From Candidatus Bathyarchaeota archaeon (lineage in GTDB: Archaea; Thermoproteota; Bathyarchaeia; TCS64; B23): DNA of 42,519 nucleotides. Numbering within the stretch: the first letter of the stretch is position 1; every line of letters starts with the position of its first letter. The notes below the pieces were generated by a model. That model had not been told where the DNA came from. It made no database searches and saw only the letters and a program-made list of their open reading frames with translations. Both the position numbers and the translations under genes were made by a program. The DNA lies in the NCBI GenBank assembly GCA_937898665.1, contig CALEIY010000006.1:1-42519 (forward strand). Direction: 5' to 3'. Shown in pieces: positions 32,117 through 34,526 of this stretch.

Positions 32117-33232
32117 TTGCTCAAAGGCTATGCGGATCTCCCCCTCCACCATGGGAGGGCGCCGAGGTGGCTCTTCAACAGGATGGTTAAGTTAGCTGAG
32201 TGCATCGTCGCCATCATCGTCGACGAATACGGCGTCCACGAGCTTCTACGTAGGCTGTCAGATCCCTGGTTCTTCCAATCCCTAAGCTGTGTCCTCGGAT
32301 ACGATTGGCACTCAAGTGGGACGACGACGGTGACCTGCGCAGCCCTGAAGGAGGCCATAGACCCAGGGGAGATGGGGGTAGCCGTCGCAGGAGGCAAGGG
32401 CAGAGCATCGAGGAGAACCCCCGAGGAGATCGTGGTTCTCTCCCAGGTTTTGGGTCTCCCCAGCCATAGGGTTGAGGAGCTCCAATATGTCAGCAGGATG
32501 GCGGCTAAGGTGGATAACGCCCTAATCCAGGATGGCTACAGCCTCTACCACCACACCTTCATCTTCGATGAGCATGGACACTGGATCGTCATACAGCAGG
32601 GTATGAACGATGAGCTTGGAAACGCCAGGCGATACCACTGGCCCATGGAGCTTAGCAGCCTCATCGTCGAACCCCACAGCGCCATCCTCTGCGACACGAG
32701 GCTGAAGTCGGCGCTGGACATGACCTCTAAGAGGAGCGAGGGAAATCGAAGGGCCTGCGTCGACATCGTCAGGGAGGGGCCTAGGAGGCTGAGGAGGCTG
32801 ATAGCTGAGGCACCTGGCCCCCAGACGACGCTGGAGAGGTGGATGGGCGGCGAGGCCCCGAGGCATCTGGTGATGCCGAGGAGCATAAACTGGGAGGCAT
32901 TGAGGAGGGCCTATGAGTTTCAGCCCAGAGACTATGAGGAGCTCGTCTCCCTACGGGGTGTAGGCCCCTCTACGGTTAGGGGGCTGGCCCTGGTGGCGGA
33001 GCTGATCTACGGCGAGGAGGCGAGTTGGAGGGATCCCGTGAGGTATAGCTTCGCCTTCGGCGGGAAAGATGGCGTCCCCTTCCCCGTCGATAGGAGGGCG
33101 ATGGATGAGGCAGTCCACATCCTTAGAAGCGGCATCAAGGAGGCGAGGCTGGGAAGGGAGGAGAAGCTCCGAGCCATAGAGAGGTTGAGGCGATGCGTCC
33201 CACCCTCCATGAGGGATAGGGTTAAGCCCTGA
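32117..33232 (+). CDS. DUF763 family protein with helix-hairpin-helix motif
   Basis: ADLPLHHGRAPRWLF, LGYDWHSSGTTTVTCAALKEA, GWIVIQQGMN-like segment; LVSLRGVGPSTVRGLALVAELIYG HhH. Confidence 0.85.
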   Translation: MLKGYADLPLHHGRAPRWLFNRMVKLAECIVAIIVDEYGVHELLRRLSDPWFFQSLSCVLGYDWHSSGTTTVTCAALKEAIDPGEMGVAVAGGKGRASRRTPEEIVVLSQVLGLPSHRVEELQYVSRMAAKVDNALIQDGYSLYHHTFIFDEHGHWIVIQQGMNDELGNARRYHWPMELSSLIVEPHSAILCDTRLKSALDMTSKRSEGNRRACVDIVREGPRRLRRLIAEAPGPQTTLERWMGGEAPRHLVMPRSINWEALRRAYEFQPRDYEELVSLRGVGPSTVRGLALVAELIYGEEASWRDPVRYSFAFGGKDGVPFPVDRRAMDEAVHILRSGIKEARLGREEKLRAIERLRRCVPPSMRDRVKP

Positions 33233-33515
33233 GAGCCTTCAGGACTACCTTCACGAAGTCCCCTGGGGAGACGCCTATGAGGATGGTTCCCCGCTCCTCG
33301 AAGAATTTTATGATCGCCTCCCTCACCGCCTCCGCCTCGGCTTCGACGCCGATGAGGTGGCGCTCCAACTCCTTCAGATCGGTCTCGGGGTGGAGGAAGA
33401 AGTCCCCAGTAAATTTGATGTCCCTAATCCGATTGGCCTCAGCCTCCACCCTCACCCTTATGAGCTTACCACCAGGAACCTTATACTCAGCCCTACTCAA
33501 CCCCATCAGCCCCAT
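33222..33515 (-). CDS. stand-alone lipoate-protein ligase C-terminal-like domain (LplB-like)
   Basis: 97 aa; YKVPGGKLIRVRVEAEANRIRDIKFTGDFFLHPE...LERHLIG. Confidence 0.65.
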   Translation of the reverse strand: MGLMGLSRAEYKVPGGKLIRVRVEAEANRIRDIKFTGDFFLHPETDLKELERHLIGVEAEAEAVREAIIKFFEERGTILIGVSPGDFVKVVLKALRA

Positions 33516-34116
33516 AGCCTAGCGAGCTATAACGCCTCTTAACCTCCTCCATGCGACCACAGGTGAAGCGCCCCTCGGGGCAGTAGCCAAGTTGATAGCA
33601 GTAGGGGCCGGCCCTTCGGAAGAGTTGAGGCTCCACCCTTCGAACCTCCCTGAGCATCTCATCGGCCACCTCCCTGATCTCCCACTGAGCCCTGAGGCAG
33701 CATCGGAGGCCGAAGAAGTGGAGCAGCGATCGGCCGTCCATCGTCACCATTAGATGGGTCTCGGTGGCGTTAGGCAGCACGAATCTGGCATCCTCCCTCG
33801 GGACGCCGAGTTTGATCAGCTGTCTATACGCCTTGCTGGCCTCTTCTATTAGAGCATCGAAGATCTCACGTCTCCTCCCCTCGATGGTCTTAGGGATGAC
33901 GACATACTCCTTCAGGCGTTCAACCTCTACGTATCTCTGGCTCTGCTGGGAGTAGGAGGCAACCCTATGCCTCACGAGTTGATGGCTGCAGACCCTGCTT
34001 ATGCCCTCGACGGCGAAGATGTAGGCCAGGTGGCTTAGGAGCTCAGCGTCTGGTATCTCTCCCACCTCGTTGAGGAGATCCTTTGAGGGGATGTAGGCGA
34101 GGAGTTTCACCCTCAT
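33493..34116 (-). CDS. thyX: ThyX-family flavin-dependent thymidylate synthase, RHR-motif-containing subunit
   Basis: SHQLVRHRVASYSQQSQRYVE ThyX signature, VPREDARFVLPNATET, GRSLLHFFGLR...AQWEIREVA; Cys-rich tail. Confidence 0.9.
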   Translation of the reverse strand: MRVKLLAYIPSKDLLNEVGEIPDAELLSHLAYIFAVEGISRVCSHQLVRHRVASYSQQSQRYVEVERLKEYVVIPKTIEGRRREIFDALIEEASKAYRQLIKLGVPREDARFVLPNATETHLMVTMDGRSLLHFFGLRCCLRAQWEIREVADEMLREVRRVEPQLFRRAGPYCYQLGYCPEGRFTCGRMEEVKRRYSSLGYGADGVE

Positions 34117-34526
34117 TTAGACTCCCCCCTCAATCTCCTATAGACTGTCGGCGCCACCTCCCTGATAGACTCCAGGAGATGCTCAGCCATGGGGTCTCTA
34201 TGCCTCCTCACATATTCGATGACAGTTCTCAGGTTTGCGCTCAGAAGCCATCTCCCCTCCCCGATCCTGGATACGTGGAAGAATCGGTTTCTAAGCAGGA
34301 GTTCCAGGATGGCCTTCTCATCGGCCTCTAGGAGCCAGCATAGCCTGTTATGTTCGAAGACGCTTCCATGGTGGAATTCAAGCCTCTCAACGATCCTCCC
34401 AGCCCTCCTCGGCCCCCTCTTCAAGGCCTCATAGGCCTCTGAGGGTCTGCGGCCGGTGGTGGTGAGGATGGCCGCCGCTATTAGGGCTTCGATGTCTGGC
34501 GTTGAGGCGATGAGTCTAAGCCTCAT
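34113..34526 (-). CDS. ThyX-like paralog lacking the RHR motif (137 aa)
   Basis: LEFHHGSVFEHNRLCWLLEA matches the ThyX GHxSxxEH region; SANLRTVIEYVRR matches the NxRSLxxF region; 4-nt overlap with thyX. Confidence 0.75.
   Translation of the reverse strand: MRLRLIASTPDIEALIAAAILTTTGRRPSEAYEALKRGPRRAGRIVERLEFHHGSVFEHNRLCWLLEADEKAILELLLRNRFFHVSRIGEGRWLLSANLRTVIEYVRRHRDPMAEHLLESIREVAPTVYRRLRGESK

Follow-up and report, generated by a model that had tools for sequence, protein, structure and literature searches.

Two overlapping genes in a 42,519-nucleotide stretch of Candidatus Bathyarchaeota DNA (the window) encode complementary paralogs of the flavin-dependent thymidylate synthase ThyX. We propose, with a probability of about 0.85, that the pair forms a heteromeric thymidylate synthase with shared active sites; the complex, its L2S2 stoichiometry, its activity and the inactivity of either protein alone are inferred. 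The proposal is built on the homology of the two proteins, the reciprocal retention of active-site residues, the co-occurrence and coupling of the genes, a natural fusion, the lack of any other thymidylate synthase in most genomes tested, and tree tests that reject one common origin of the large subunits. In the mechanism envisioned, duplication of thyX followed by reciprocal loss would have yielded the two paralogs. Two large subunits would provide the dUMP pockets and the RHR grip on the flavin phosphate, while the third wall of every site, on the FAD and folate side, would come from two small subunits (His53, Glu58, Asn163 and Arg165). We predict an L2S2 particle in which two sites are complete and two are dead.

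Two partial ThyX proteins from one gene pair

The features of the pair are listed below in window coordinates; Tm marks T. maritima ThyX numbering.

34113..34526, minus strand: small ThyX paralog (S subunit), 137 aa (ORF, Thy1 match, AF2 model, Foldseek, alignment A1 of 23 sequences)
33493..34116, minus strand: large ThyX paralog (L subunit), 207 aa, N-terminal helices deleted (ORF, Thy1 match, alignment A2, fold match)
34113..34116, minus strand: ATGA, the 4-bp overlap of the small stop and large start codons (sequence)
34350..34370, minus strand: small residues 53-59, HGSVFEH, the His53/Ser55/Glu58/His59 motif, found only in the small protein except for His59, which both have
34227..34241, minus strand: small residues 96-100, SANLR, equivalents of Tm Asn163 and Arg165
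33931..33981, minus strand: large residues 46-62, QLVRHRVASYSQQSQRY, equivalents of Gln75, RHR and Ser88/Arg90, found only in the large protein
33736..33738, minus strand: large Asp127, at the position of Tm Asn163 (alignment A2)
33784..33786, minus strand: large Arg111, equivalent to Tm Arg147 (alignment)
33703..33705, minus strand: large Arg138, equivalent to Tm Arg174, a dUMP residue (alignment)

Both open reading frames and their ATGA overlap, as called in the initial annotation, were borne out, and the motifs quoted there for the two proteins read as described on inspection of the sequences. The thiI gene lies upstream of the pair, and the 3' end of the large gene is overlapped by 23 bp by a downstream Lip_prot_lig_C gene. 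The latter encodes a stand-alone Lip_prot_lig_C protein (97 aa, 33222-33515, minus strand), and the lipoate ligase at this locus may be a two-gene enzyme as well. A DUF763 protein gene (32117-33232, plus strand, E=3.1e-129) is convergent with the thyX genes.

The large protein matches the Pfam profile Thy1 (PF02511) at E=1.7e-55 and 188 bits (cut-off 24.8) over profile positions 41-190 of 191, and TIGR02170 gives the same picture (159.8 bits, cut-off 87.9). The small protein matches Thy1 at E=2.6e-5 over positions 1-83; its 24.5 bits fall 0.3 below the cut-off, which two of its relatives exceed (28.8 and 30.7 bits). A BLASTP comparison of the small protein with the large one was not informative (E=0.014); homology between the two rests on profiles and folds. 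The AF2 model of the small protein alone (pLDDT 92, pTM 0.84) has a compact ThyX fold, and all 50 of the 50 PDB matches listed by Foldseek are of the ThyX family (probability 1.00, TM by query 0.58-0.72). The model of the large protein is weaker (pLDDT 76), yet matches the ThyX fold at E=9e-11. Measured against what defines a ThyX, the large protein has the profile score, the RHRxxSxxxxSxR motif and the dUMP arginines at Tm 147 and 174 (49/49 sequences), and fails in its deleted N-terminal GHxSxxEH helix and in the replacement of Asn163 by Asp; the small protein has the fold, and not the profile score, the RHR motif or the dUMP-binding residues.

Alignment to T. maritima ThyX, a check proposed in the initial annotation, found complementary segments missing from the two proteins (PDB 1kq4 served to check the reference sequence). 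Roughly Tm 21-52 is absent from the large protein, whose N-terminal loss comes to ~35 residues with GHxSxxEH among them, and roughly Tm 91-158 from the small protein, with the small-protein alignment loose in the RHR region. The large protein had been said to skip GHxSxxEH; the segment is indeed deleted, except that the last His of the motif (Tm His59) is still present, in SHLAYIFA. A change that had not been pointed out before concerns Asn163, near-universal in ThyX, which is Asp in the window's large protein (TMDGRS), while Asn and Arg are kept in the small one (SANLR).

The Thy1 matches, to the N-terminal half only for the small protein and to the C-terminal part only for the large, would suit a simple gene fission, i.e. 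one ThyX chain cut into N- and C-terminal pieces that refold as a single protomer. We give this very little credence: the first beta strand, the core and the C-terminal part (the SANLR/TMDGR segment and helices) are present in both proteins, the small protein is modelled as a compact ThyX fold by itself, and in natural fusions the halves stand in tandem, each retaining its own N- and C-terminus. As both proteins are paralogs with a full core, simple fission is rejected.

Distribution of the pair and of other thymidylate synthases

Profile searches found the large and small genes in the identical 28 of 32 genomes of the window's order, with the pair conserved at 41-97% identity and hence no chance feature. 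Only one (G005) of the four genomes without either gene (G003, G005, G025, G027) is more than 90% complete. An assembly error or a frameshifted single gene is excluded by the occurrence of the same arrangement in 28 genomes of the order, two of them single-contig. The small gene lies directly upstream of the large one in 23/23 extracted loci of the order, with the -4 overlap in 20 of the 23 pairs. Homologs lacking the small paralog, which would have counted against the initial annotation, were sought; in the order no truncated large protein was found without a small one, and the homologs that have no small partner are full-length. Among 61 relatives searched, ThyX matches in families f1 and f2 (the window's order) start at profile position 40-55, and most other families of the class with a ThyX match have a full-length ThyX.

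The survey of other archaea that the same annotation had called for did turn up the split pair, in further families of the class as well as in a second one. Elsewhere in the class (257 genomes) the small protein was found in families f9 and f19 (17 f19 genomes listed), and its large partner in 16 of those 17; in the remaining one (G450) there is no more than a small fragment at the end of a contig. The second class was entered via G384, a 100% complete genome on one contig; it has pairs in families f68 and f80, and in family f81 small and large are fused in one ORF of 397-423 aa (4 genomes, one of which is a single contig of 1.59 Mb). Whatever the type, small precedes large, and the two are close together or overlap; in type II and III pairs the likeliest starts lie within about -11 to +8 nt. 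The pair satisfies the criterion for a translationally coupled heteromer pair, a conserved short overlap or very short gap; genes for heteromer subunits are enriched for short overlaps (PMC10666635). A one-genome-per-species scan with the small-protein alignment found 25 loci, all labelled Candidatus Bathyarchaeota but one labelled uncultured archaeon. Viral contigs yielded only a full-length ThyX.

We also note some peculiar loci: (i) Large ThyX genes of family f19 carry an in-frame insert of ~356 aa that splits the active-site motif exactly between SFSQQ and SQRY (L062:2329-4125, G056; also in G443, G447 and G456). The insert has a LAGLIDADG_3 domain (E=3.9e-12) and is very likely an intein. 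(ii) A 445-aa ORF in family f14 (L066:1604-2938, G046) has two divergent Thy1-like stretches with no RHR motif in evidence, and is possibly another rearranged or degenerate ThyX. (iii) One f19 genome has a type III pair on a 5-kb contig (L127, G449:C33) as well as a type II pair; the type III pair could be either horizontal transfer or contamination.

The pair appears to stand alone in most of its hosts. In the window's genome (1.83 Mb, 95% complete), profile searches found no Thy1 match besides the pair and no ThyA. No match to ThyA (PF00303) was found in 26 of 30 genomes, 29 of the 30 having the pair or the fusion; the negative genomes include G384, G675 and G585 (100, 100 and 99% complete). 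No other ThyX was found in the 18 genomes checked, where the Thy1 matches are the pair or fusion only. Partial ThyA-like matches (E 1e-12 to 4e-16), which count against the proposal, were seen at G007:C10, G009:C8, G014:C96 and G018:C1 (f2; the pair is also present).

Sorting of active-site residues between the subunits

In M. tuberculosis ThyX, subunit A holds FAD-A through its RHR, subunit B through Ser71 and Arg190, and subunit C through Gln103 (PMC6514825). In the PBCV-1 enzyme, one monomer contributes Gln75 and Arg182 and a different one Ser88/Gln89 (PMC3498832), and His53 has been located on monomer 3 of the ThyX site (PMC11940539). The conversion of M. tuberculosis and PBCV-1 residues to T. 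maritima numbering is our own, by motif, with Ser71 and Arg190 equated to Tm 55 and 165 and PBCV-1 Arg182 taken as Tm Arg174. These structures place the two residue sets on different subunits of one active site.

The residue counts cover 49 small/large pairs, of which 24 are of type I, 11 of type II and 10 of type III, and 4 are fusions. Gln75, Arg78, His79, Arg80, Ser88, Arg90, Glu144, Arg147 and Arg174 are each present in 49/49 large proteins and in 0-20/49 small ones. The reverse holds for Glu58 (49/49 small vs 1/49 large), His53 (39/49 vs 0/49), Asn163 (44/49 vs 5/49) and Arg165 (49/49 vs 27/49), while His59 is found in all 49 of both. The published chain assignments and these counts together put residues of the A and C roles on the large subunit and those of the B role on the small; the roles of Glu58 and Asn163 are inferred from neighbouring residues, not taken from a paper. 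Two segment deletions account for much of the sorting, and the sorted residues are therefore not independent; the Asn163 change is the most telling, since the segment around it is intact in the large protein.

Also against the proposal, the complementarity of the two sets is imperfect, with exceptions at Arg165, Asn163 and His53. Type III small proteins have Ser or Ala in place of His53, a loss that seems inherited, since three related full-length ThyXs have Thr there. Position 55 carries Ser or Asn in type I; the remaining types have Asp there, and so do their full-length relatives. At position 163 the fusion has Thr in the small half and Thr or Asn in the large half, which also bears Trp at 165, and in a single small protein of type I the residue at 163 is Asp.

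We enumerated the 16 subunit assignments of a tetramer with 222 symmetry. Two complete sites arise only in LSLS/SLSL, and LLLL and SSSS have none. All dUMP-binding residues are present in the large protein, as they should be if it were a thymidylate synthase alone and the small protein were unrelated in role or decaying. Such an arrangement is hardly credible, with the GHxSxxEH part of the FAD/folate wall missing in 49/49 large proteins, and the small protein conserved at 41-91% identity in the order (alignment A1) and found in every large-bearing genome there. A degenerate paralog, co-occurrence and coupling would appear the same, too, if the small protein were a pseudo-subunit (prozyme) with a regulatory or stabilising role, activating the large one without giving active-site residues. 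We consider this unlikely, in that H53, E58 and R100 of the small protein are invariant and N98 nearly so (alignment A1), and these residues contact or neighbour FAD/folate and are mostly absent in the large protein. The composite active sites inferred in the initial annotation, which the heteromeric enzyme proposed here would have, are supported by the residue sorting, the co-occurrence, the absence of a full-length ThyX, the fusion and the ThyX fold of the small protein.

Evolutionary origins and relation to known systems

In a tree of large and full-length proteins, the large proteins of type II (L2), type III (L3) and the fusion (LF) each group, at starred support, with a different set of full-length ThyXs: L3 with those of f92/f86 (99/92 and 100/97), L2 with those of f88/f90 (97/90 and 95/93) and the fusion half with those of f82 (98/81). 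Type I (L1) forms its own clade, with no full-length sister identified in the tree. Holding all four types together was rejected (p-AU 1.9e-121), as were the pairings L1+L2 (8.8e-5), L1+L3 (0.0017), L2+L3 (5.2e-5) and L2+LF (1.2e-4). An earlier tree without second-class full-length ThyX had not rejected a single origin (p=0.32); rejection came after 16 such sequences were added. The small-subunit tree has only 71 columns. It rejected one clade for all (p=0.0145) and S2+S3 (0.004), and placed S3 with the same full-length relatives as L3, while S1 joined S2, and S1+S3 and S2+SF were not rejected.

With a single origin rejected for the large subunits, the split looks convergent. Read from these trees, repeated duplication and reciprocal loss would be secure for types II and III and an independent event likely for the fusion; an independent origin of type I, that of the window, would be supported by the large tree only. 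On balance we favour a scenario in which, on four or more independent occasions spread over two classes of a single archaeal phylum, a homotetramer became an obligate L2S2 enzyme having two live sites and two dead ones, with one fusion following or accompanying. The recurrent route, in which the large protein drops the GHxSxxEH helix and usually changes Asn163 and the small protein drops the dUMP half, would be set by the geometry of the three-subunit site.

If the proposal is true, whole clades of uncultured archaea have, in the form of an obligate heteromer, an essential enzyme of DNA-precursor synthesis that had been known only as a homomer, and annotation pipelines would there tend to label the large gene a normal thyX and overlook the small one. 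If the independent origins hold as well, the pairs are a natural replicate experiment on the change from homomer to heteromer, with the same active-site halves lost each time. Interface-sharing ThyX catalysis and the neutral ratchet evolution of heteromers would become directly testable, with a ThyX whose subunit roles can each be mutated separately.

Streptomyces PolB resembles the pair in being a ThyX paralog, from a second thyX gene in one genome, but is a full enzyme of nucleoside antibiotic synthesis and not a complementary half (PMC5954106). No heteromeric or split ThyX was described in the open-access literature searched, which did not cover subscription papers. The pair has the fold, the RHRxxSxxxxSxR motif, the dUMP residues and the GHxSxxEH motif of ThyX (PF02511, TIGR02170), here split over two proteins; in described ThyXs a single full-length chain forms a homotetramer that has four identical sites, whereas the pair would make two complete ones. 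A heteromeric ThyX with shared sites is supported by comparative evidence as a new variant of the family, its complex, stoichiometry and single-protein inactivity being predictions from sequence. Outside the family, the archaeal tRNA splicing endonucleases (alpha4 vs alpha2beta2) went from homotetramer to heterotetramer through duplication and subfunctionalisation in a like manner, although the enzyme is unrelated and its catalytic site is not shared in the same way. Trypanosomatid AdoMetDC and deoxyhypusine synthase likewise have an active protein that requires a degenerate paralog, but in these eukaryotic systems the partner is an allosteric activator or gives few residues.
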